In this document: piece by piece, positions 5,161 to 25,851 of the stretch
Numbering within the stretch: the stretch's first letter is position 1
How the letters are laid out: each line of letters starts with the position of its first letter
Virus record (IMG/VR): IMGVR_UViG_3300012978_000002
Span: 1-26,058 of that record
From: a virus
DNA: 26,058 nt
Reading direction: 5' to 3' (one strand)
Notes under the pieces: generated by a model
Database searches by the model: none
Told to the model about the DNA's origin: nothing
What the model saw: the letters and a program-made list of their open reading frames with translations, nothing else
Program-made: the position numbers and the translations under genes

Positions 5161-7148
5161 AGCCTAGTCCCTCTTGGCTCTTGCCTCATCATACGAGACG
5201 TTATCTCTGCTCGCTCAATCGCCTCTCTGAGATGCCTGCCTGAACGAACGAAGATAGCATCTTCATTAGGGCCTGTATCAAGTTTGATTTTGACTTCGAC
5301 TTGCTGCTTGCCTCCTGATTGAGGGCCCTTCTGAGAGGCTTTAGGCTTCTCAATCACTTTCTGAGGCTCTAGATTGAGGCTTGAAACATCCATAAAGATC
5401 TGCTCTGCTTTTCTCTCAGGAACAATAGCAGTCTCTTTGAGGCCAGTGATTCCTAGCTTTGCAGAGATAGCGTTGATGACATATTCTATCGCATCAGGAA
5501 TCTTGCTGAGAGCAGAGACGAGCAAAGTGATTTGATCAATAACAAAGCTCATTTGCTCCAGCCAAAGCGCTAGTGCTCCTAGCAAGACTCCTCCTATGAC
5601 GTCTGTCACTGGCCTTAGAATCTGAAGCAGCTTTCCTCCTGCATCCCAAAGCTGGCCTAGAGCTGTCCAGAGTCCTCCTAGACTATCTGTGACTTTGTTC
5701 CAAGCTGAGCTCAGATAATCAGCAACGCCCCAAATGTTGGATTCGAAGGCTCCTATCATGCTATAGATAGCAGCTCCTATTGCTGCGATGATAGGCAAAG
5801 CTCCTGTTAGCGTTGCAAGGATGCCTCCGCCTCCTGCAGCTGCAGCAGCAGTTGCTCCAGTTGCTGCAGTCGCTGCTGTTGCAGCAGATGCGCCTCCAAA
5901 GAAGCTTGAGATGCCTCCTATAACTGTTGGAGCTAGAGTCAGAGCTCTTGCAGCAAGAAGACTTCCTCCTAGCGCTCCTCCTATAGCTTTCATAGAGACG
6001 CCAGACTCTTCAGACTCTTGAAAGAGTTTAGGGCTCTTTATAGCTTGAAGCTTATCAGAGATTGCAGAGACTCTGCCATAAACGAAGTCCCAAGCGTCTT
6101 TGATTCTGCTCGATATATTGGCAGCCATCTCCATGCCTGATGCTACGAGATCAGGCAGCTTATCAATAATATTGTTCAGAGTCAGATCTAGACTTGCGAA
6201 TGATTTCGTCCAAGGATAGAGAATAGCTCTGAGGCCCTTCTGAAAATATTCTCCAGTCAAAGCTAGCTTGCTCTTCAGCTGCTCATTCGAAATGATATTG
6301 ACGAGCGTCTGAGCAATCGATTGAGCTCCTCGTTTGACTGTTTCGAAGAGAGGGCCTCCAAGCTGCGAGCCTATGAACTTTATAGCATCGAGAATCGTTG
6401 ACTTGACTCCTTGAAAAGAGTCTCCGTAAGCTTTAGCTGCAGCCTGAAATGCTGGATTCGTAAGAGCTGCCTGAATCTTTTTGATTCGCTGCTCAACAGG
6501 CAACTTGTTCCAAACTGCTGCGCTTTGAATGCCTAGAGTAGGAATCGACATCATAGCTCTGAAGAAAGGCAGCTCTACGCCAGCATTGCCTTGGAGCATT
6601 CGCATGACGTCAGCTCCTGCTTGCTCAAAAGAAGTGCCTAGAGCTGGAGCTGTTGCAATAACTCCTTTCGTAATCTGAAAGAGATCTTCAGCGCTCTTGC
6701 CTGCTCCATAGAGCGGCCCTGCAATGAGAGAGGCGACTTGAATAAAGTCTTTCGTCTCTCCTGCTGATTCAACTGCAGCGATACGAAATCTTTCAACGAG
6801 CTTCTGAACTGACGAAACAGCAGTTGAGAAACTAACTTGCGTTGCAGCTGCAGTGACAGCTGCCATCTGAATCGTCTTGCTCTCTAGCTCAGATAGAACA
6901 GATCCTACTCCTAGAGCTGCAGCTCCAAAGCCTGTCGCAACAGCTCCTCCTAGCAGAGCTCCAGTCTTAGCAATGCCTGAGACTGCAGAAGCTGCAAAGC
7001 CGAAGATGCCTCCTCCTAGCCTCGTTAGTCCTGTTGAGATCTTATCGTAGGCCATATCAGAGGCTGAGACAGCTTCTCTCATGCCTCTGATGAAGCGGCT
7101 TGGATCTGCCTCCAGAACAGTGCTAACGAGATATTCAACTTCAGCCAT
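5157..7148 (-). CDS. Tail tape measure protein
   Basis: A 663-residue protein that follows the two chaperone-type genes, the conserved position of the tape measure. It has long Ala/Gly-rich hydrophobic helices: about residues 44-84, about 390-465 with an Ala/Thr/Gly low-complexity stretch, and about 505-540. Polar helices lie between them, and the C-terminus is charged. The start reads MAEVEYLVSTVLEADPSRF, like many tape measures. Using the known rule of about 1.5 angstroms per residue, the tail would be near 100 nm. There is no peptidase or lytic domain visible. The gene starts 8 bases inside the preceding small gene. The protein is expected to sit inside the tail tube, set its length and enter the host membrane during DNA ejection. 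Confidence 0.88.
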   Translation of the reverse strand: MAEVEYLVSTVLEADPSRFIRGMREAVSASDMAYDKISTGLTRLGGGIFGFAASAVSGIAKTGALLGGAVATGFGAAALGVGSVLSELESKTIQMAAVTAAATQVSFSTAVSSVQKLVERFRIAAVESAGETKDFIQVASLIAGPLYGAGKSAEDLFQITKGVIATAPALGTSFEQAGADVMRMLQGNAGVELPFFRAMMSIPTLGIQSAAVWNKLPVEQRIKKIQAALTNPAFQAAAKAYGDSFQGVKSTILDAIKFIGSQLGGPLFETVKRGAQSIAQTLVNIISNEQLKSKLALTGEYFQKGLRAILYPWTKSFASLDLTLNNIIDKLPDLVASGMEMAANISSRIKDAWDFVYGRVSAISDKLQAIKSPKLFQESEESGVSMKAIGGALGGSLLAARALTLAPTVIGGISSFFGGASAATAATAATGATAAAAAGGGGILATLTGALPIIAAIGAAIYSMIGAFESNIWGVADYLSSAWNKVTDSLGGLWTALGQLWDAGGKLLQILRPVTDVIGGVLLGALALWLEQMSFVIDQITLLVSALSKIPDAIEYVINAISAKLGITGLKETAIVPERKAEQIFMDVSSLNLEPQKVIEKPKASQKGPQSGGKQQVEVKIKLDTGPNEDAIFVRSGRHLREAIERAEITSRMMRQEPRGTRL

Positions 7149-8200: not shown

Positions 8201-10351
8201 TTAGCCTCCTAGTTTGACAGTGCCATCTGTTACGTTGAGCATGAAGACAAGAGGATTTGCATCATTCTGACGCTTTGCTGTGATCGAGAAGATCTCTGCT
8301 GTGCCTTGCTGCCCTACGTATTTCTGATCGAAGCTGCCAGGCTCAACAGTCTTCTCTTGCACTCTAGCCATCTGAAAGGCTTCGATTGCAGTGAGAATCA
8401 AGTTTCGTCGAATAGGATCTAGCTGACGCTTCGATTGAGTCTTGAAGCCTGCTAGAAAGTTTCCATAGAAGCCTGCAAGCGTTTGACGTGCAATGCTCGT
8501 CTTAGCAGAGTCAACTGCAGGATCAACGCTCGTTACTCCTTGCTCATAAGTCAAGCCATTCTCATCATAGAAGCTTGCAGAGATGCCGCTCGTCTTGAAC
8601 GATGCATAAGTGCTCACGTCCCAAGACTTGCATTCATCTCCTAGTCCTGTGCAGACGCTAGGAGGATATCTTAGAGCAGGATCTTCAGGCAACTGAGCAG
8701 GATTGAATCCTGGAGTCAAACAGGACCAACGAGCTGCTAGTCCTACGTCAGGATGACATACTACGTTGCCATCTTTATCAGCATAGCCTGCTTCGATGAG
8801 CTCAGGCAGCTGCCAATCTTGAGAGCCTAGGCAATAAACGACGAGCTCGCTTCTATAGGCTCCTACGCCTGGAGCTGCATTGCCTTGCGCTTGAGCTGCA
8901 GTTGTGCCGTTAGGAGGACAGATGAATGCCATCCTTGCATTATGGCCTAGAGAAGTTGCATCAATCGCATTCTGCCTGAGAGCTGTTCGAATCGCATTCG
9001 ATTGCCTGGCCGATACGATGCCGTCAATAGACTTCTTGACTGGATCTGTATAGCCAAGCGTTGCATTGATCGCAGTTCGATAGCGATCGTCAATCTGAGC
9101 AGCTGTTAGAGCTGCAGAGAGAGCATTAGGATTCGAAACAGACCATTCGAAGTCTCCTGCTCGATCCTCTAGCGTATCAATAGCGTTTGCAGATACTCCT
9201 GCATACGAGCCATCATCTACTGCAGGACGAACTTTGATCGAGACTGGATTCGTAGTGCCTGCAGCAACATCAGTGCTAATCATAGTCACAACTCTCGTTG
9301 CTAGATTAGAGCCGCTGCGCACTCGAGTTCCTGCAGGAATCGTTGTTGCCTTAGACAAGGCAGCTGTTGATGGAGAAGACTGAGCAACGAAGCCTAGAGC
9401 AGCGTTTGCAGTGCCATTCTTGACTTGAATCGTTCCGCTGCCTGCAGTCTTCGAAACAAGCCTGACGAAGCCATCGCTCGATTGCGTCAGCTGAACTGCA
9501 GGATTTGCTTCAATCTTAGTCTTGAGCTCTGCAAACGTCATCTGAGCAATATTATAAGCGTCTCCAGTGCCATAAACTGTAACGTTAGAGCCGCTCGTCA
9601 GGCCGAAGGCAGCGCTCGTTGAGTTATGAACAACTGTTACTGAAGAGCCTGTTCCTTGAGTCGTGCTCGTCAGCTTCAGTTGCGTTCCAGAGACAGAGGC
9701 AACGCTCAAGCCTAGAGTTGCATTGATCCTGCTAACGACAGCGTTGACGTTATTATCTCCAGATTGAAAGATAACTGTCACAGGATTCGCTCCATCAAGG
9801 CCAATCTGCAGAGTCTCTCCTCCAACAATATTGCTGAAGACTCCTCCTGTGCCTGTTAGGCTAGCTGCAGTAGCGCTAAACGTTACAGTTACATCTGAGG
9901 CTCCGTTTGCGCTATAGATGAACGTCAAGCCGTTAGCTAGCACGAACGGAGGCTTCAGAGTCGATTGAGTGAACGCTCTTGGAGTGAACGTTACTTCTCC
10001 GATGCTCGTATCGACTCGACAGAAGACAAGCCCTCCAAAAGTCTTGTTTGCGATTTGAACGAATGCATTGCCGTTGAAGTATTCAGAGCCTCCGCTCCTT
10101 AGAGCGCAAGGATATTGATATTTGCTTGAGCCATACGTATAGCCAAAGCCTCCGAATCCTGAACGGCTTGCAGCACTGCTGATTCTCGTTGGAGTGTTGA
10201 ACGGCCCATCTTCGAACTCTCCTACAACGCAGATCGTGCCGAAAGGAGGAGTTGCTTGAGAAGATGCTGCAGGACTGTCAACAATAACAACTCCTGAGAC
10301 TGAGCTTAGAACAGATAGAGATGGAAGTGCAGAGTAGCGTCTTACGAACAT
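8201..10351 (-). CDS. Tail sheath protein with inserted beta domains
   Basis: A 716-residue protein with the contractile sheath layout. The N-terminus contains GTICVVGEFEDGPFNTPTRI and a glycine-rich GFGGFGYTYG. The C-terminal half contains a KSIDGIVSARQSNAIRTAL-type helix and the ending VFMLNVTDGTVKLGG, with an FYGNFLAGFKTQSKRQLDPI segment typical of the conserved C-terminal domain. Residues about 177-253 and 267-325 form two tandem insertions with a repeated pattern of beta strands, an Ile-Asn helix end and an LKLTST or VRLVSK strand. Related insertions occur in sheath proteins of other large phages and probably decorate the tail surface. The protein contracts around the tube to drive injection. 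The ATG at 10351 overlaps the upstream gene by 10 bases. Confidence 0.9.
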   Translation of the reverse strand: MFVRRYSALPSLSVLSSVSGVVIVDSPAASSQATPPFGTICVVGEFEDGPFNTPTRISSAASRSGFGGFGYTYGSSKYQYPCALRSGGSEYFNGNAFVQIANKTFGGLVFCRVDTSIGEVTFTPRAFTQSTLKPPFVLANGLTFIYSANGASDVTVTFSATAASLTGTGGVFSNIVGGETLQIGLDGANPVTVIFQSGDNNVNAVVSRINATLGLSVASVSGTQLKLTSTTQGTGSSVTVVHNSTSAAFGLTSGSNVTVYGTGDAYNIAQMTFAELKTKIEANPAVQLTQSSDGFVRLVSKTAGSGTIQVKNGTANAALGFVAQSSPSTAALSKATTIPAGTRVRSGSNLATRVVTMISTDVAAGTTNPVSIKVRPAVDDGSYAGVSANAIDTLEDRAGDFEWSVSNPNALSAALTAAQIDDRYRTAINATLGYTDPVKKSIDGIVSARQSNAIRTALRQNAIDATSLGHNARMAFICPPNGTTAAQAQGNAAPGVGAYRSELVVYCLGSQDWQLPELIEAGYADKDGNVVCHPDVGLAARWSCLTPGFNPAQLPEDPALRYPPSVCTGLGDECKSWDVSTYASFKTSGISASFYDENGLTYEQGVTSVDPAVDSAKTSIARQTLAGFYGNFLAGFKTQSKRQLDPIRRNLILTAIEAFQMARVQEKTVEPGSFDQKYVGQQGTAEIFSITAKRQNDANPLVFMLNVTDGTVKLGG

Positions 10352-11055
10352 GTTTCGATCCTTACATCAAAGTCTTGGAAAACAGGTTTATAAGGCTTGC
10401 AATGGAATCGTTGGCACTGCCAGCTGATTCGCAAGCCTGCTCGATAGATTGAAGTCTGGCCGCCTTCATCATTGATAGATTCTACACTATCTTCAAGCCA
10501 AACTGAACAATAAGGCCCTATTCTTGATGAATCTGCAGAAGGCAGCCTTCGCCATTGATCTCTTATCACAGGAGGCAGTATAGCAAGAGGAACAGGCAAG
10601 AACAACAGATTTTTATGTTCTATGTCTCCTAGAAAGACTTGCTTGACTGCATTATAGAGCGCTCTGCATTCATAAAGCATCTGCGCCCAAATCGTCAACG
10701 AAAGCGTTCCTATATCTTCTTCAGTGCCATAAAGAACCCAAGATTTTGTTTTGTCTGTTATATCATTGCCTTCTTTATCAACGAGAGCAATAGGATCAGC
10801 TGCGTTTCTCTCTAGCAGAGAAACTCTAGAGATTTGCAAAGCTGGCAGCCTCAAGCCTTCGAATGACATAACTGGATCGCTATATATTTTAGCAAACTTT
10901 ATGAGCTGTCCGTTCTCAACTCTTGCTTCAAGTTGGCTGCATATTTGAGCAAGAACTTCAATGACTGCTCGCTCAGGAGAGCACTCAGCAACAGCCTCAG
11001 CAGGCAACTTGCTTATCTCTAGCCTTTGATCGTCTTCTGCAGTCCAGTAACTCAT
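10342..11055 (-). CDS. Probable tail completion/terminator protein
   Basis: A 237-residue soluble protein directly upstream of the sheath gene. I recognise no named family by sequence. The gene lies where many phages encode the tail terminator or tail-to-head joining protein. Features are a mixed alpha/beta composition, a helix PERAVIEVLAQICSQLEARV near residues 27-46, a strand-rich centre (LPALQISRVSLLE) and a C-terminal strand set with several Cys and Trp residues (RISWQCQRFHCKP). The start ATG at 11055 overlaps the upstream stop as ATGA. The role is inferred from gene order only. An alternative is a minor tail protein of unknown place. Confidence 0.5.
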   Translation of the reverse strand: MSYWTAEDDQRLEISKLPAEAVAECSPERAVIEVLAQICSQLEARVENGQLIKFAKIYSDPVMSFEGLRLPALQISRVSLLERNAADPIALVDKEGNDITDKTKSWVLYGTEEDIGTLSLTIWAQMLYECRALYNAVKQVFLGDIEHKNLLFLPVPLAILPPVIRDQWRRLPSADSSRIGPYCSVWLEDSVESINDEGGQTSIYRAGLRISWQCQRFHCKPYKPVFQDFDVRIETCS

Positions 11056-13887: not shown

Positions 13888-14472
13888 TCAATAGACGTTG
13901 TTGAACCCCAAAGATTGCATGATCCTTCTGCGCTCTTCAGGAGAGACTTTAGTCAAATCCTGTTTGATCGAAAGCTTATCAGGCTTCAAATCATTAGCCT
14001 GAAGTTGATGTTGCCCTAGAGGAGGAGGCGCTGCTGTCGAAGTCGCTTCAGCAGAGCCTTTGAACAGAAATGGAAGCTTCTTCTTTAGATCTGAGATGAA
14101 CGCCTCCATCTTATCAGGATCTACGTTCTGTGCGTTTGCATAGGCAAGAACAATAGGCACAGCATCCTTGATAACGTCAGCCTCTGCAAGAGCTGCTCGC
14201 CGAAGCGAAGTCTGAATCGCCAGATTCGCAGCCTCAAGCTTAGCCTCTGCCTTTGAAAGACGCTTCTGAGCCTCTTCATATTCAGCTCGAAGCTTATCAG
14301 TCTCTGAAGGCTCCTCTTTCTTCTTCGCTTCAGGCTCCTTAGCCTTAGCAAGAGCCTCCTTGAGCTCGTCTAGACTCGATACGCCAAGCTTAGCAAGAAC
14401 TGCCTGCGCAATCTTATCTGCATTCAGTTCCTGCTTAGCTGACTCCTGTTGCTGCTGAACTTCTGACTCCAT
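13888..14472 (-). CDS. Capsid scaffolding protein
   Basis: A 194-residue, highly charged, helical protein directly upstream of the capsid gene. Residues about 20-110 carry Lys/Glu/Ala heptads (EEPSETDKLRAEYEEAQKRL continuing to about residue 95) that predict a long coiled coil. The C-terminal part has a Pro-rich hinge (about 150) and then a basic helix (VSPEERRRIMQSLGF), like the coat-binding ends of scaffold proteins. Composition and position are typical of scaffolds. Its ATG overlaps the upstream stop by one base (TAATG). No protease domain is fused to it. Confidence 0.8.
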   Translation of the reverse strand: MESEVQQQQESAKQELNADKIAQAVLAKLGVSSLDELKEALAKAKEPEAKKKEEPSETDKLRAEYEEAQKRLSKAEAKLEAANLAIQTSLRRAALAEADVIKDAVPIVLAYANAQNVDPDKMEAFISDLKKKLPFLFKGSAEATSTAAPPPLGQHQLQANDLKPDKLSIKQDLTKVSPEERRRIMQSLGFNNVY

Positions 14473-15626
14473 TAGACAATCCCTGAAGTGTTATCAGTCA
14501 AGAGAGCAGGAATAGCATTCGAAATCGAATGCCTTCGAGGCTCCTTGCTTCGAGTCCAATAGACTAGTTCAACAGTTGCTCCTGCTCCTGTTACTTCGCC
14601 AGCAGCAAAGGCTACGCTTGTGCCAGCACTATTAGGAGCAGCACTATTTGCAGCAGCTGCAGAGCCTCGACGAAGAGGAGTCTTCTCTCCGAGTCCTGTG
14701 CTGCCAGTTAGAACTTCTGCAAAGAGAAGCTTTGCAATAGGATACGTTGGAGTAGCTGCGTCGCTAGCAACTGCAACAACTTCTCGCACAGGAGTTAGAG
14801 CTCCTTGCAAATCCAAGTTGTTCAGCATTGTGCCAATCGCACAGCTTGCAAAGAAGCGACTCATCTGATTGAGATCGCCAGTATCTAGAACTTTTCGACC
14901 GTTAGCCATGTTGCACCATAATAAATATTTTTTGCCAGAGATCCAGAAGACGACGCTAGGAGCAGTGCCTGAAACTTCTAGCTTCTTAGGCAGATCTGTT
15001 GCAGCAAATCGTAGAACATGAGGCCCTACTCCTAGATGATAATCAAAGCCTGAGCCATAAAGATCTTGTTGCGTTAGGCCAAGAAGAGAAAGGGCATTGC
15101 CTGAAATAGAGAGCAATCCAAAGGATCGCCCTGAAGCTTTCGCATCAGCTCCTCCTGTGTTCGAAGAGCTAAGAACAAGATGATTCGAAGCATTCACTGA
15201 AGCTATTGGAGCGTTCATATTATAGTTGATTTTTCTAGCAACGAGATCAAGAGTCGTATCTGTTGCAGCGAATGTCGTTGTGACTGCTGGATTGCTATCA
15301 AGAACAATCGTTATGCTTTTGCCATCGAGGCTAGCAGTTGGAGCTGAAACGTTGCCTTCGATGCTTGGAGCTACGCCTCCAACTCTGAGAATCAAATCTG
15401 CGCTTGCTCCAGTTTGAACAATAAGTCTTTCAATCTGAACGACGCTCGTAGGCACTGCAATGAACTTAGCTCCTGGAGCGCCTTGCGTTGCAATAGACAT
15501 AGGCGTTGGATCTGAGAAATCATGCACTGAAGCGTTAGCCTCTGCAATAGAAAGGCCGTTCGCTTGCGTAGGCGAATCTAGATCCTGAACGATCAGATCC
15601 AACGTTAGTTTCCAGCTTACTGCCAT
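14472..15626 (-). CDS. Structural protein, possible head decoration, with FlgK-like beta domain
   Basis: A 384-residue protein between the Mu F-like head gene and the scaffold. I do not recognise a named family. Residues about 100-185 form a module closely like those inserted in the tail sheath: KSITIVLDSNPAVTTTF, then LDLVARKIN, then NHLVLSSSNTGG, then a LLGLT ending. This strand-helix-strand pattern is also seen in flagellar hook proteins and other surface-exposed structural proteins. The rest is beta-rich with Ala/Ser-rich loops near 320-345. The gene has its own strong promoter, with the -10 box ending 9 bases before the ATG, and no convincing ribosome site. Its product may therefore be needed in large amounts. 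A decoration or minor capsid role is inferred. Confidence 0.5.
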   Translation of the reverse strand: MAVSWKLTLDLIVQDLDSPTQANGLSIAEANASVHDFSDPTPMSIATQGAPGAKFIAVPTSVVQIERLIVQTGASADLILRVGGVAPSIEGNVSAPTASLDGKSITIVLDSNPAVTTTFAATDTTLDLVARKINYNMNAPIASVNASNHLVLSSSNTGGADAKASGRSFGLLSISGNALSLLGLTQQDLYGSGFDYHLGVGPHVLRFAATDLPKKLEVSGTAPSVVFWISGKKYLLWCNMANGRKVLDTGDLNQMSRFFASCAIGTMLNNLDLQGALTPVREVVAVASDAATPTYPIAKLLFAEVLTGSTGLGEKTPLRRGSAAAANSAAPNSAGTSVAFAAGEVTGAGATVELVYWTRSKEPRRHSISNAIPALLTDNTSGIV

Positions 15627-20915: not shown

Positions 20916-20987
20916 TGTGCTGGAGTTGGCTCCTTGCTCCAGTTCCGGAACCCCTGAAGCCTAATAAGCTCAGGGGTTACGCTTTTT
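20916..20987 (+). ncRNA. Predicted short transcript (about 70 nt), possibly an sRNA
   Basis: The transcript is predicted from the promoter at 20882-20909 and a hairpin followed by T residues. It would have a 5' hairpin (CTGGAG at 20920-20925 with CTCCAG at 20937-20942, 11-base loop), a TTCCGGAA palindrome (20943-20950) and a 3' stem (20949-20957 with 20970-20978). It ends near TTTTT at 20983-20987, on the stop codon of the opposing reductase gene. A tiny open frame also begins at GTG 20917, 8 bases after the -10 box: 15 codons ending in tandem TAA TAA inside the 3' loop. It could therefore be a leaderless micropeptide mRNA. No known RNA family is recognised. Confidence 0.5.
20949..20987 (+). 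terminator. Terminator of the short plus-strand transcript
   Basis: A perfect 9-base stem (AACCCCTGA at 20949-20957 with TCAGGGGTT at 20970-20978) encloses a 12-base loop. Five T residues lie at 20983-20987 after a four-base gap. The T-run is on the plus strand only. On the minus strand the hairpin lies just after the reductase stop codon but has no T-run, so it may still protect that mRNA end. The gap before the T-run makes it weaker than ideal. Confidence 0.6.
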
Positions 20988-22888
20988 CATCGAACAGGGC
21001 ATGCGCCACTAGAGCATTCGTTCGTATCGAAGTCTCCTCCTCGAGTCAAAGGATGAGAGAAATCAATCTTGCTTGCTAGCTCCTTGAATCGAGCTTCGTC
21101 AATCACTTCATAAGGAGCCTGCTCATAAGCATGAGAGTTTGCCAGAAACGAAACTGACTTCAGCTTAGGAGCATAACTCTGCAAGCATGCATGCAGCTCA
21201 TCAAGCTTGTCTCTATCAAACGAAATCGTTGCAGAGACAGCGTTATCTGCCCAATAGTTTTGAACTTGCAGCTGACGCTCGAACTGCTCTCGAATCGTCT
21301 GATTCTGAACTGTTACTCTCGTATGCTTGGCCTTCATAGGAAACAAGAAGCATAGAGTATGGCCCGTTGAATCATATTTATCGACTTCATAAGGCACTCC
21401 TGCATCCTTCAGAGCCTGAGTCATAGGATCGTTATCAGCATGCCTCGTTCGACGAATATAATAAGGAGCGAATGGAGCATGAATGCCTGGAGACGAGCCA
21501 CAGAGAAGAGAAATCGTTCCTGAAGGCTTCACTGTCGTCACAGTTATAGGCTTTGCAACTCGCAGAGACTCTGCATATTTGTTCGCTTCGTCTCTGACGA
21601 TTCTATAATATTGAGCGAGCCTATCAACGTCCCAAGCAAAGTCACAGATGCCTCCTAGGCCGACTCCAATACGCATGTTGCGCTTGGCAACTTCGTTCGA
21701 CTTAGGATCTGTTAGAGGCGTCAGCCTTACTCGCAGGCAATATCTAGCAACGAGCCTGAAAATAACTTCTGGCTCAACACTGCCGTCAAAGTTAGCAGGA
21801 AACACTTCTGCTAGATTGCAGGCTTCTCGATCCCAAAGAAGCTGTTCGCCGCAAGGATTGACTCCTTTCGCTCCTGGATCTTGCAGCCTGCCTAGAGCTA
21901 GATTCAGGATGCCTGGCTCGCCGAACTCAATATTATCCTCAATCAAGCTCTGCCAATCGAACGCATCGAACTCGCTGAAGTGTTCGAAGACAATAGAGTT
22001 GTTCGACGTATGCCTATGGCTCAGCAGAGCTTCGAAATCTTTCTTAGCATCTCGAAAGGCTTTGTCAGAAGGATTGCCTAGCACAATCAAAGCTGAACGC
22101 CTGACGTTGCCTGATTTGATGCACTTGCCAACGAGATTCGTTACGTCAAGAGCATCGACGCTCGTTAGCTTTCTGCCTGCAGCTCGTCGAATAACTTGCC
22201 AAATATTTCTCAGCATAGAGACTAGAGGCCCTGGGCCGCAAGCAATGCCTCCAAAAGTTTTTATAAGCGCTCCTCTCGCTCGAATCTTTGAAACATCAAC
22301 AATCAAAGATTTGCCTTCATAGGCATGCTCAATCGTCTTCAGAAGAGCTTGAATCCAGCCCTCTCTGCTATCAGGCACTTCGAACGCTGAAGCCCTTTGA
22401 GAAGCTAGAGCGTCTGGCAATACTTCGTCAACGTCAGGATGATTCTGATCGCAGCTCACTCTAAAAATAGCTTGAGGATTCTCCTGCACTTTTGGCAGCG
22501 CAGCAATCTCTGAGAGCCCTACTCCTACGCCGCCTCCTAGCATGAGCTGATTCGCAATCCAGCCCCAATCTTTATAGTCATAGATCGTTGTGTACCAACA
22601 GTTATAGCGAGCATCTGCAGGAATGCCTTCAACGCCGCTGACCCATAGGCCTCTGCCAGGAGGCAAAGCTTGCATCGTCCAAAATATATGGAAAAGCAAC
22701 TGCTTCTCCTTCAGAGAAACGTTAGGATCGAGCTCACAGTTGCTCTCAACGACTCGTTTGATCGTATCTGTCCAAGTCTCGTTATCTCTGCAGTACTTTG
22801 AGAGATATGTGCTCCTTGCCAGGAGATTAGGAAAAACATCCCCTTTCTTATAATATGGAGAAAGAAAATCCTTCGTGAGATTTTGCAT
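20987..22888 (-). CDS. Class II (B12-dependent) ribonucleotide reductase, monomeric type
   Basis: A 633-residue reductase that makes deoxynucleotides for phage DNA synthesis. It matches the adenosylcobalamin-dependent monomeric family: N-terminal ARSTYLSKYCRDNETWTDTI, first active-site Cys in NCW (C97), LMLGGGVGVGLSE (116-127), and the finger loop NPCGEQLLWDREACNLAE (344-361). That loop holds the thiyl Cys C346, Glu E348 and second redox Cys C357. A KPSGT-type phosphate loop lies near 455, and the C-terminal CSSGACPVR carries the reducing Cys pair. It is about 100 residues shorter than the Lactobacillus enzyme. No small (radical-generating) subunit is present, as expected for class II. An AAGGAGG ribosome site lies before the ATG at 22888. 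The gene shares a transcript with the 171-residue gene. Confidence 0.93.
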   Translation of the reverse strand: MQNLTKDFLSPYYKKGDVFPNLLARSTYLSKYCRDNETWTDTIKRVVESNCELDPNVSLKEKQLLFHIFWTMQALPPGRGLWVSGVEGIPADARYNCWYTTIYDYKDWGWIANQLMLGGGVGVGLSEIAALPKVQENPQAIFRVSCDQNHPDVDEVLPDALASQRASAFEVPDSREGWIQALLKTIEHAYEGKSLIVDVSKIRARGALIKTFGGIACGPGPLVSMLRNIWQVIRRAAGRKLTSVDALDVTNLVGKCIKSGNVRRSALIVLGNPSDKAFRDAKKDFEALLSHRHTSNNSIVFEHFSEFDAFDWQSLIEDNIEFGEPGILNLALGRLQDPGAKGVNPCGEQLLWDREACNLAEVFPANFDGSVEPEVIFRLVARYCLRVRLTPLTDPKSNEVAKRNMRIGVGLGGICDFAWDVDRLAQYYRIVRDEANKYAESLRVAKPITVTTVKPSGTISLLCGSSPGIHAPFAPYYIRRTRHADNDPMTQALKDAGVPYEVDKYDSTGHTLCFLFPMKAKHTRVTVQNQTIREQFERQLQVQNYWADNAVSATISFDRDKLDELHACLQSYAPKLKSVSFLANSHAYEQAPYEVIDEARFKELASKIDFSHPLTRGGDFDTNECSSGACPVR

Positions 22889-22900
22889 AGCAGAGCCTCC

Positions 22901-23416
22901 TTATAAAGCAAAGGCACTATGGCCGTTGACTCGAATCATGCCCCAAGTCTTATAGCCTAGAGCTCCATAGACTTCGTTGGCCCAAGCTAGAAGGCTTTTT
23001 GATGCAGGCCAGAACGCTGGAACATCCTTATCGCAACTGACGACTCCGTCTAGAGCAAAATAAACGTTCAGCAAGAATGCTTGCTCTTGAATAGGAAGCC
23101 CTAGAACGATATCCTTATCTGTCACTCCAAAGTTTCTGAGCACTTCTAGATCGAAGCCCCAAAGCCCTATTTTGCCATCGCTTTGAACAGATTCAGGATT
23201 CCAGTTCGAGATGCGTTCAGCTGCCCAAGTCAGATGAGCCAAATCTGAGATCTCAGATAGCTCAAAGACAGTTCTGCAGAAGTCAACAGGGAACTTCCTT
23301 GCTACTTCGTACATGCCATAGCCTCGAATAGGCTTTAGCACGCCCATAGCCTCATGCTTGATGTAGCCAACTTCTTCAGGCATCGTCGAGAGAAAAGCTG
23401 CTCTTGAGTATATCAT
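22901..23416 (-). CDS. Lytic-transglycosylase-like protein, catalytic Glu uncertain
   Basis: A 171-residue protein. Residues 69-90 read ISNWNPESVQSDGKIGLWGF, followed by a helix and an invariant-looking GLPIQEQAFLLNVYFA (106-121). This is like the E-S-x-W-N-P ... G-x-x-G-L-W core of lysozyme-type transglycosylases. In the usual alignment the catalytic Glu would fall at Ile69. The nearest Glu is E67, two residues earlier, so activity is uncertain. There is no signal peptide. The gene starts after a CTAGGAGG ribosome site placed just past a terminator-like hairpin and lies 12 bases upstream of the reductase gene. A lytic role would be odd in a nucleotide-metabolism cluster; a structural or regulatory use of the fold is possible. 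Confidence 0.45.
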   Translation of the reverse strand: MIYSRAAFLSTMPEEVGYIKHEAMGVLKPIRGYGMYEVARKFPVDFCRTVFELSEISDLAHLTWAAERISNWNPESVQSDGKIGLWGFDLEVLRNFGVTDKDIVLGLPIQEQAFLLNVYFALDGVVSCDKDVPAFWPASKSLLAWANEVYGALGYKTWGMIRVNGHSAFAL

Positions 23417-23440
23417 AACTCCTCCTAGGCCAGAGCAAAG

Positions 23441-23471
23441 AATAAGGCCAGCTCATAAAACTGGCCCTATT
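23441..23471 (-). terminator. Hairpin terminator after the CRISPR-like gene
   Basis: The stem is AATAAGGCCAG (23441-23451) with CTGGCCCTATT (23461-23471), 11 base pairs with one wobble, and a 9-base loop. It begins two bases past the stop codon at 23473. On the minus strand the stem ends in TTATT followed by CTTTG, which is U-rich but not a full U-run, so termination may be partial. The ribosome site of the next gene lies immediately after it. Confidence 0.55.
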
Positions 23472-23472
23472 C

Positions 23473-23853
23473 TCAGAACGACAGCATCAAATACTTTCTG
23501 AACTGGCAGAACTCAAAGCGAGAGACTTTCGTAGTCACTCCGTTCTCGACTCTCTCCTCAGCGATTCGCTTCGTAGTCGCTGCATAGCAATCGATTCCAT
23601 TGCTTTGCAATAGAGCGACAACGTAGCATGCAAGAGTTGGCTCCCCTGCAACATGACAGGCCCTAGGAGCATGCTTCAAGATCTTCTCAACGCAAGCTAG
23701 AGCCAAAACTTCAATGTCTTCAGAGCTTGCGTAAGGATCTACTTCAGGAAAAGCAATATCCTCGATCTCTTCACTCTTGCCTAGAGCTTGAGCTGCCTTG
23801 ATCTGCTTTTCACTCCATTGCGATGAGCTATGATTCGAAAAGTTGACGAACAT
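23473..23853 (-). CDS. Small Rossmann-like protein resembling CRISPR-associated accessory proteins
   Basis: I start it at ATG 23853 (MFVNFSNHSSSQW, 126 residues). An AAGGAG ribosome site lies 8 bases upstream. The longer frame begins at a TTG that is in fact the -35 box of a promoter. The product has an N-terminal strand FVNFSNH, an AFPEVDPYASSED turn, a HVAGEPTLACYVVALLQ helix and ATTKR, then a final FEFCQFRKY strand. This looks like a Rossmann fold with a nucleotide-like pocket. From memory, the pattern (NFSNHxS..W...Q, FPxVDPxAS, GExT, ATTxR) resembles small proteins annotated near type III CRISPR loci. I am not certain of the family. It could be a phage ring nuclease or another cyclic-nucleotide-acting protein. 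Its own promoter and terminator support an accessory role. Confidence 0.5.
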   Translation of the reverse strand: MFVNFSNHSSSQWSEKQIKAAQALGKSEEIEDIAFPEVDPYASSEDIEVLALACVEKILKHAPRACHVAGEPTLACYVVALLQSNGIDCYAATTKRIAEERVENGVTTKVSRFEFCQFRKYLMLSF

Positions 23854-23891
23854 GGCTTGATCTCCTTCAGCAAGCTGAGCTTGCCTCAGCA

Positions 23892-23919
23892 TATATAGCA
23901 GCACAGAGTCAACTGTCAA
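23892..23919 (-). promoter_or_regulatory. Promoter for the CRISPR-like gene, inside the end of thyX
   Basis: The -35 box TTGACA (23914-23919), a 16-base spacer and a TATATA -10 box (23892-23897) overlap the last codons of thyX on the same strand. Transcription would start near 23885, giving a 30-base leader with the AAGGAG site before ATG 23853. The final base of the -10 is A rather than T, so strength is moderate. This promoter makes the next gene independent of thyX. Confidence 0.55.
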
Positions 23920-24787
23920 GCACTGCTTCGTTCTTGAAAGTCTTTCTCAACTGCAGCCAGCCAACAAAGTTGCCTAGCTCCGCAGGATCAAAAAGCTTTC
24001 TCTTGCGCATAGCCTCTGAAACAAGCTCGTTCCATTGCTCCTCAGTTAGAGCCATAGCAATATGCTCAAAAGGAGACATATGAGGAGGATCTGAGCTGCT
24101 GAGCCTCCTAGCTAGCTGCAGATCTTTTTCAGGCTCTCTCTTGCCTTCATGCGTCAAATATGAAACTCTAGCAACTCTGCCTGCAGCAATGAGCTTCATA
24201 TCTTCAAGCGAGTAGCCTTCAGCTTCAAGCTGCGCTCGATCCTGCAGCATAGGCATATGCCAGTCTCCTGAGTGCAACTGCTCAGGAGTGCTCGCTTCAT
24301 ATTTATTTTTCATCTCAGCTGCAAGGCTTCTGATTTCAGGCTGAGCATCTGCATGATTGCGAAGCTTGAAGAAGTTTGAGAAGTTCGTTGCAGAAACAAT
24401 CACTGTTATATGCGAGAATGGCTCTAGAACTCTGTTGACGATCTGCTTATGCAAGCCTAGAGACTCGAGGCTCTTTGCCAAAGAAAGAGCTTGATCTCTG
24501 CCATAGAGCCAAAGAACCTTCGCAGTCTGAATCTCTCCAACAGAGAGCTCCTCATCAGCTTGCATGCCTGCCTTATTCTTGCCCCAAAACGTAGGCATTG
24601 CAGGCTCCAGCCTGACGAGCTCCATGAATCTAGAAATAGGAATCGCTCTTGACGAAGCACTATTTCTAGAAAATAGCCTGTGCGTCATCAGCTCTGCATG
24701 AATAAATCTAGGATACGTCAGCTCGAACGTTGTCAGCCTAGAGCCTGCAGGAGAAACAGAATCCTTCAGGATCTTCACAGAGTACAT
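23909..24787 (-). CDS. thyX: Flavin-dependent thymidylate synthase
   Basis: A 292-residue enzyme that makes dTMP from dUMP with FAD and methylenetetrahydrofolate. The ThyX signature is present as THRLFSRNSASSR (residues 35-47), with H36, R37, S40, N42, S45 and R47 in the family spacing. The Arg before H36 is Thr here. The N-terminal segment (TYPRFIHAELMTHRLFS) and later LARRLSSSDPPHMSPFEHIA are also family-like. The length is a little above the bacterial norm of 220-250. A CTAGGAGG ribosome site lies just before the ATG, directly after a long terminator hairpin, so expression depends on read-through from the upstream transcript. It works with the class II reductase downstream to supply DNA precursors. 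Confidence 0.93.
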   Translation of the reverse strand: MYSVKILKDSVSPAGSRLTTFELTYPRFIHAELMTHRLFSRNSASSRAIPISRFMELVRLEPAMPTFWGKNKAGMQADEELSVGEIQTAKVLWLYGRDQALSLAKSLESLGLHKQIVNRVLEPFSHITVIVSATNFSNFFKLRNHADAQPEIRSLAAEMKNKYEASTPEQLHSGDWHMPMLQDRAQLEAEGYSLEDMKLIAAGRVARVSYLTHEGKREPEKDLQLARRLSSSDPPHMSPFEHIAMALTEEQWNELVSEAMRKRKLFDPAELGNFVGWLQLRKTFKNEAVLDS

Positions 24788-24850: not shown

Positions 24851-25777
24851 TCATTCAGCCAGATCAATAAATGCATGCAGTTGAGCCTTATAATAGGCTT
24901 GAAGCTCTTGCGCCAGCTCCAAATAAGGCTCAGCAATATAGCTCGTCTCAGGATCATTCAGCAAGGCTAGCACTGCTGCAATCTTAGAGGCGTGCGTCGA
25001 GACTCGCTTATCATACGTTAGCTCTTTAGGAGACTCGCCTCGATTATATCGAGCATGAACGACTCGAAGAGCATCTAGAATCTTAGCATTGAACTCCTCT
25101 TGCGCCTCCTTCGTTGGCTGACAAATAGTTTTAGGCTCCAGCTCGATGTTCAGCAACGAGCATTGAATCAGATCTGAATATTTCTCTGCTCGAAAGTCTC
25201 CATAGAGATGCATAGCGCAGCCATTGCCATAAGGATATCCTGAACGCCAGTTCTGCTCAAGCCATAGCAGCGTTGATTCACTATGCTTTTTTGAACAAGC
25301 GTCCGTTGATAGAATGCATTGCGTCGGCCAGTCTCGAATGAAGCTCTGAATCAAACGCTTCTTGCTGATTGCGTAGAAAATCATATGGCCTGTCAGAGGC
25401 TTCTTAGGCTCCTTGCCTAGATCCTGCAACTGCCAAAGAGCATCCATATCTCCTCTCATGAAGCGCCTCTCTAGAGGAGCCTTCTGAGCATCATAAGAAG
25501 CCTTCTCTTTTTTATATTGCTCCGTTCTAGCTTCGAAACTCTGGCTCATCTCTGCATGAAACTCGAGCAGAGGATCCATAGCAAACGAAGCATATGGAGG
25601 CAGATCTGCCTTCTGATTCGTCTGCGTGATCATATAGAGACTGATAGGATTCGACACTAGGCCTTGAACGACGCTCGATGCTACTGCAAAGTAGCTTGCT
25701 GCAGCAACAGCTTCGTTGCCTTCTGCAGAGGCAACAACTTTCGAGAGAGGGCCCAACGCTTCAACTGGATATCGCAT
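24851..25777 (-). CDS. DUF3987-like protein, shortened, without a visible Walker A
   Basis: A 308-residue protein following the DNA polymerase gene. The N-terminal 50 residues (VEALGPLSKVV, ASYFAVASSVVQGLVS, NPISLYMITQ) match the opening of DUF3987 proteins, which are linked to phage and plasmid primase-helicase systems. Where most members carry a phosphate-binding SGxxKS after this point, here the sequence is TNQKADLPP, so an ATPase loop is not evident. The end (RVSTHASKIAAVLALLND, residues about 261-278) fits the family C-terminus. It is about 100-200 residues shorter than usual. It has its own promoter and a strong terminator after it. A role in replication is inferred from position; it may have lost catalytic function. 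Confidence 0.55.
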   Translation of the reverse strand: MRYPVEALGPLSKVVASAEGNEAVAAASYFAVASSVVQGLVSNPISLYMITQTNQKADLPPYASFAMDPLLEFHAEMSQSFEARTEQYKKEKASYDAQKAPLERRFMRGDMDALWQLQDLGKEPKKPLTGHMIFYAISKKRLIQSFIRDWPTQCILSTDACSKKHSESTLLWLEQNWRSGYPYGNGCAMHLYGDFRAEKYSDLIQCSLLNIELEPKTICQPTKEAQEEFNAKILDALRVVHARYNRGESPKELTYDKRVSTHASKIAAVLALLNDPETSYIAEPYLELAQELQAYYKAQLHAFIDLAE

Positions 25778-25843: not shown

Positions 25844-25851
25844 ACTGTCAA
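25824..25851 (-). promoter_or_regulatory. Promoter for the DUF3987-like gene
   Basis: The minus strand has TTGACA (25846-25851), a 16-base spacer and TATAGT (25824-25829), 10 bases past the stop of the DNA polymerase gene. The start should be near 25817, giving a 40-base leader before the ATG at 25777, with AAGGAG in front of it. It is one of the best consensus promoters in the window. Confidence 0.72.

Follow-up and report, generated by a model that had tools for sequence, protein, structure and literature searches.

We analysed a 26,058-base IMG/VR virus record, the whole of which is hereafter called the window. Nearly all of its genes lie on the minus strand. They include genes for a terminase (phrog_38, 4e-56), an SPP1-like portal and a Mu F-like head protein, as well as tail genes and the last part of a DNA polymerase A gene. 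On the minus strand at 23473..23853 lies a gene for 126 amino acids (hereafter the csx20-like gene), whose product is predicted to be a ring nuclease for cyclic tetra-adenylate (cA4) on the basis of PADLOC, a profile built from cellular proteins only, invariant residues and a structure model. Its upstream neighbour is thyX, for a flavin-dependent thymidylate synthase (23909..24787, minus strand; Pfam Thy1 3e-14, phrog_85 3e-77), and its downstream neighbour, past a hairpin, is a 171-residue gene assigned to no Pfam or PHROGs family (22901..23416, minus strand). A B12-dependent ribonucleoside-triphosphate reductase gene (20987..22888; TIGR02505 3e-118, above the cut-off) and a DUF3987 gene (24851..25777; Pfam 3e-11), both also on the minus strand, flank this group. 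The csx20-like gene shares its contig with the terminase, the portal, the Mu F-like head protein, thyX and the reductase, which supports its viral origin.

The csx20-like gene begins at the ATG at 23853 and ends at the stop codon at 23475-23473. Direct reading shows an AAGGAG ribosome-binding site upstream of the ATG (together 23851..23867, minus strand), and the homologues share the same start methionine. A longer form starting at a TTG codon (148 residues) was ruled out because the homologue starts and the ribosome-binding site both fit the ATG. A sigma-70-type promoter sequence, TTGACA-N16-TATATA, was read directly over the last codons of thyX (23892..23919, minus strand). TTGACA lies at 23919-23914, within the thyX codons ..CTT GAC AGT TGA, and is followed by a 16-base spacer and TATATA. 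The window holds two copies of TTGACA-N16-TATA, compared with a mean of 0.04 in a first-order Markov control, 0.3% of whose runs reached two copies. TATATA agrees with TATAAT at 4/6 positions, and a generic promoter scan of the window did not list the site. For these two reasons we regard the sequence, a consensus match only, as the likely rather than the certain promoter of the csx20-like gene. The second copy, TTGACA-N16-TATAGT at 25851, precedes the DUF3987 gene and is likely to belong to the same phage promoter class. A preliminary description of this locus had placed a promoter inside the end of thyX and a 126-residue gene with a strong ribosome site behind it, and both points agree with the present analysis.

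A 17-pair hairpin (23438..23474, minus strand), assessed by folding energy and shuffling, starts inside the stop codon of the csx20-like gene and is a probable intrinsic terminator. Its folding energy was -24.5 kcal/mol (z = -5.46), and none of 200 shuffles was equally stable. Since the U-rich stretch TTATTCTTT lies mostly within the 3' arm, the U-tract is paired inside the stem, and the structure departs from a textbook terminator. The stem-loop terminator proposed earlier is retained as a strong hairpin. Hairpins below -20 kcal/mol were found at 3 of the 26 gene ends in the window, after the DUF3987 gene, the csx20-like gene and the reductase gene, and these three divide the region into units. 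Between thyX and the csx20-like gene there is no strong hairpin or terminator, so read-through is possible and the csx20-like gene may also be transcribed from thyX. The earlier picture of a self-contained cassette thus holds for a likely promoter and a probable terminator of its own, but not necessarily for transcription apart from thyX.

Sequence comparison confirmed the 126-residue protein as a full-length member of the Csx20 family. The PADLOC Csx20 model (PDLC01397) matched with E=6.2e-29, aligning residues 1-121 of the protein with positions 1-114 of the model. The profile built from cellular Csx20 alone gave 132.7 bits (E=6e-40); of the 261 ORFs in the window this was the single one to match, and 1,000 shuffled copies yielded no match. 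The NCBIfam Csx20 model (NF040559) covered the C-terminal half only, at 32.8 bits (E=7e-8), and its curated cut-off of 70 bits was missed; it is perhaps a narrow equivalog model. With the same protein, Pfam and PHROGs searches gave no significant match and PDB sequence searches found no relative. Membership of the AcrIII-1 family (DUF1874) was ruled out, there being no Pfam match at E<=1. Of the two comparisons drawn in the preliminary description, that with Csx15-, Csx16- and Csx20-type proteins was correct, and that with AcrIII-1 fails at the level of family.

Relatives were collected from one genome per species across 84,980 bacterial and archaeal species; 279 were obtained and 80 kept. A tblastn search of plasmids found four relatives with 36-42% identity; the window protein aligns from end to end with proteins annotated within type III loci, and the best identity to any cellular Csx20 was 51% (L006). 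The nearest Csx20 proteins are those of Ruminococcus and Bacteroidaceae, in a tree that is poorly resolved. Terminase searches for the host in about 300 Bacillota and about 300 Bacteroidota genomes yielded nothing beyond weak matches (22-31%). The window gene adds a divergent phage protein to an established ring-nuclease family; it does not represent a novel type of system.

Eleven residues are invariant in 83 cellular Csx20 proteins (N4, N7, H8, W13, F35, P36, G70, E71, R96, F115 and R119), and all 11 are intact in the window protein, as are the family motifs NxxNH, W, FP, GE, R and FxFxxFRxY. The AlphaFold2 model of the protein had a mean pLDDT of 97.1. In the model, strand 1 (2-6) leads to N7-H8 and strand 4 (65-68) leads to G70-E71; in CARF proteins, the ligand-binding positions lie past strands 1 and 4 (PMC4012209). 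The best matches among solved structures were Cam1 bound to cA4 or cA6, and the first 50 PDB matches also include Cap4 SAVED/CARF and Can2-cA4. Since these matches are modest (E ~1e-3, TM ~0.4), they indicate the fold class alone, and the model supports a Rossmann/CARF-like fold at that level, in line with the fold suggested earlier from sequence patterns. In a viral fold library the best match was an unnamed protein, A0A5Q2WBQ4 (TM 0.7).

The neighbourhood of the relatives points to type III CRISPR. Although many contigs were short, cas genes or cyclic-oligoadenylate (cOA) effectors were found near 72 of the 80 bacterial relatives, bearing out the earlier expectation of homologues near type III loci, and a type III core gene (cas10 or cmr) lay in the available stretch of 51/80. 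Genes of the Csx1/Csm6 type occurred in 48/80 loci and those of the Can2/Card1 type in 32/80. The three plasmid loci that we opened, from Aureispira, Runella and Rhodothermus, are type III-B or III-A regions, and in two of them the csx20 relative directly follows a csx2 gene. Neither cas genes nor cOA effectors were found on the seven other IMG/VR contigs with Csx20 or in the 26-kb window, which is as expected for a phage member; a place in a type III locus is usual for Csx20 without being a requirement.

Several relatives were fused to other domains. In L045, L067, L072 and L083, a Csx1-like CARF-HEPN protein (RxxxNH by eye) carries a Csx20 domain at its C-terminus; this is the layout of a self-limiting effector, for which a PADLOC model exists. 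In L066:6480-8297, L019:8001-9788 and L010:3780-5186, Csx20 is fused to, or directly precedes, a helicase-like ATPase (RecD/Pif1-like by eye), and in L028:8001-9464 its fusion partners are an apparent membrane segment and one more domain.

For the window gene, the analysis establishes the family, the conserved residues, the class of fold, the expression signals and a phage setting that lacks cas genes. We consider it likely that the phage uses its Csx20-family ring nuclease as a type III anti-CRISPR. What we infer concerns the activity of this copy, the roles of its residues, the timing of its expression and its effect on immunity. In an infected cell, phage transcripts would be detected by the host Cas10 complex, which would respond by producing cA4. 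Expression of the phage Csx20 would be driven by the gene's own promoter and perhaps, in addition, by transcription running on from thyX. By analogy with the cellular enzyme, the protein would bind cA4 as a dimer, in a pocket where strands 1 and 4 end (N7/H8 and G70/E71), R96 and R119 would help the binding, and cA4 would be cut without metal into short linear products. Removal of cA4 would keep Csx1, Can2/Card1 or Cam1 effectors off. The phage-borne antagonist of CRISPR signalling put forward in the preliminary description is thus plausible by this analogy. It should be noted that the native anti-CRISPR role of AcrIII-1 is disputed, according to a paper cited in PMC12751052 and as represented there, so that a ring nuclease carried by a phage need not be an anti-CRISPR.

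On a quite different interpretation, the phage carries the gene as a passenger or has turned it to a task that has nothing to do with CRISPR, such as nucleotide metabolism. The neighbours of the gene, thyX and the ribonucleotide reductase gene, would fit such a function, and its GC content and codon use do not stand out from those of the window, as for a settled gene. The composition thus gives no sign of a recent transfer. However, Csx20 was found within 8 kb of a related thyX in none of 70 viral loci, so that the csx20-like gene does not belong to a thyX module; its own promoter and hairpin set it apart from its neighbours, and all the conserved residues are kept. We therefore consider a passenger very unlikely. 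The term moron, used for the gene earlier, is only partly apt: the composition of the gene is that of the phage, the contig is no more than a piece of its genome, and no empty-site relative, with the same site lacking the csx20-like gene, was found. Megablast of the window against phage records found no close phage relatives, and terminase and reductase scans of IMG/VR found no related phages.

Eight further viral copies of Csx20 were found, on seven IMG/VR contigs. Phage genes accompany them: terminase and DnaB on L086, terminase and portal on L088, RecT on L087, an exonuclease on L090, SSB on L091 and a terminase small subunit on L092; L089 had a single, weak phage family match. L086 carries two Csx20 genes (10001-10363 and 14188-14538) 3.8 kb apart, near the terminase and DnaB; an ORF on the same contig (6874-7530) is RAMP/Cas6-like by eye and matches phrog_34599 (6e-30). 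The second L086 copy has H8 changed to Q, and the L089 copy (635-1063), with E71 changed to H and R119 to T, is possibly inactive or a binder only. With the window protein as query, tblastn detected no Csx20 in 50,697 phage records. By way of the L091 copy, we reached an unannotated, divergent Csx20-like ORF starting at 5611 of MT835676.1 (L169, a human faecal phage record; profile 8.9e-15), which is possibly one of the published phage Csx20 proteins; in that survey, Csx20 was reported in 4/28,114 phage genomes (PMC12409355). Since very few phage contigs carry Csx20, this strategy is a rare one.

One residue distinguishes some of the viral copies. Position 69, which adjoins the invariant Gly-Glu (G70-E71) of the predicted ligand loop, is Ala in the window protein, both L086 copies and L090, whereas the 83 cellular proteins have Met or Gln only. 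In further cellular sequences, no Ala precedes the GE motif where the motif is readable, and one has Ser. The comparison rests on nine viral sequences, some of them related, and Ala69 as a phage-specific residue is a lead and not a result. A single origin of the Ala69 copies was neither rejected nor established (p-AU 0.85). A separate phage Csx20 lineage tuned for counter-defence, comprising these four copies, is a tentative and rather doubtful proposal. If true, these proteins would stand beside AcrIII-1 and AcrIII-2 as one more class of viral anti-CRISPR that degrades cA4, and their rate or ligand range would be altered.

These observations bear on two other readings. The protein might bind cyclic oligoadenylates and cut them slowly or never, acting as a sponge that sequesters cA4. 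The structurally related Csx15 is a strong cA4 binder and a slow nuclease (PMC13148439), H8, or both E71 and R119, are missing from some of the viral copies, and the Ala69 of the window protein and two other viral contigs would also fit. The window copy, however, keeps every invariant residue, as expected of an active enzyme; no Csx15 was found in phages, and it has been argued that type III systems make so much cOA that sponging would be futile (PMC13148439). We therefore regard a sponge as unlikely. Alternatively, the main target might be cA3, from CBASS or from a cA3-using type III system with NucC, or another cyclic nucleotide, and the protein would then counter CBASS or such signalling in general. 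One cellular Csx20 degraded cA3 completely at 10 uM, and a phage enzyme unlike all cellular proteins at position 69 could have shifted in specificity. Cellular Csx20, however, prefers cA4 (PMC12409355), and the relatives adjoin effectors of the Csx1 and Can2 types, which makes this target quite improbable. A cA4-degrading anti-CRISPR is the reading that we favour.

Type III CRISPR signalling is common, yet the named viral anti-CRISPRs that degrade cA4 number just two, AcrIII-1 and AcrIII-2. The window gene is a rare, candidate type III anti-CRISPR. Intact and equipped with expression signals of its own, this phage Csx20 would be an independent case of a bacterial off-switch turned on the bacterium, and the eight further viral copies add rare sequences for comparing the phage and cellular versions of one enzyme.

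Hoikkala et al. 2025 (PMC12409355) found Csx20 to be the commonest ring nuclease of type III loci and showed that one cellular member breaks down cA4 in the presence of EDTA and, when the enzyme is abundant, cA3 too. The window protein resembles the cellular Csx20 family (PDLC01397, NF040559) over its whole length, in its start methionine, its invariant residues and its CARF-like fold; it differs in being phage-encoded without cas genes, in being at most 51% identical and in having Ala69 in place of Met or Gln. It belongs to the same family as the four published phage Csx20 proteins (PMC12409355). AcrIII-1/Crn2 (DUF1874) is likewise a small virus-borne cA4 ring nuclease with the same proposed role, but of a different sequence family. 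AcrIII-2, a viral SAVED ring nuclease (PMC12751052), is also a bacterial cA4-degrading domain carried by a virus and likely to be an anti-CRISPR; it consists of two SAVED-type CARF-like domains in 230 residues, whereas the window Csx20 is a single domain. Crn4b (PMC12830947) is a ring nuclease found in phages and plasmids too, but it differs from Csx20 in its fold and in accepting several cOA species as substrates.
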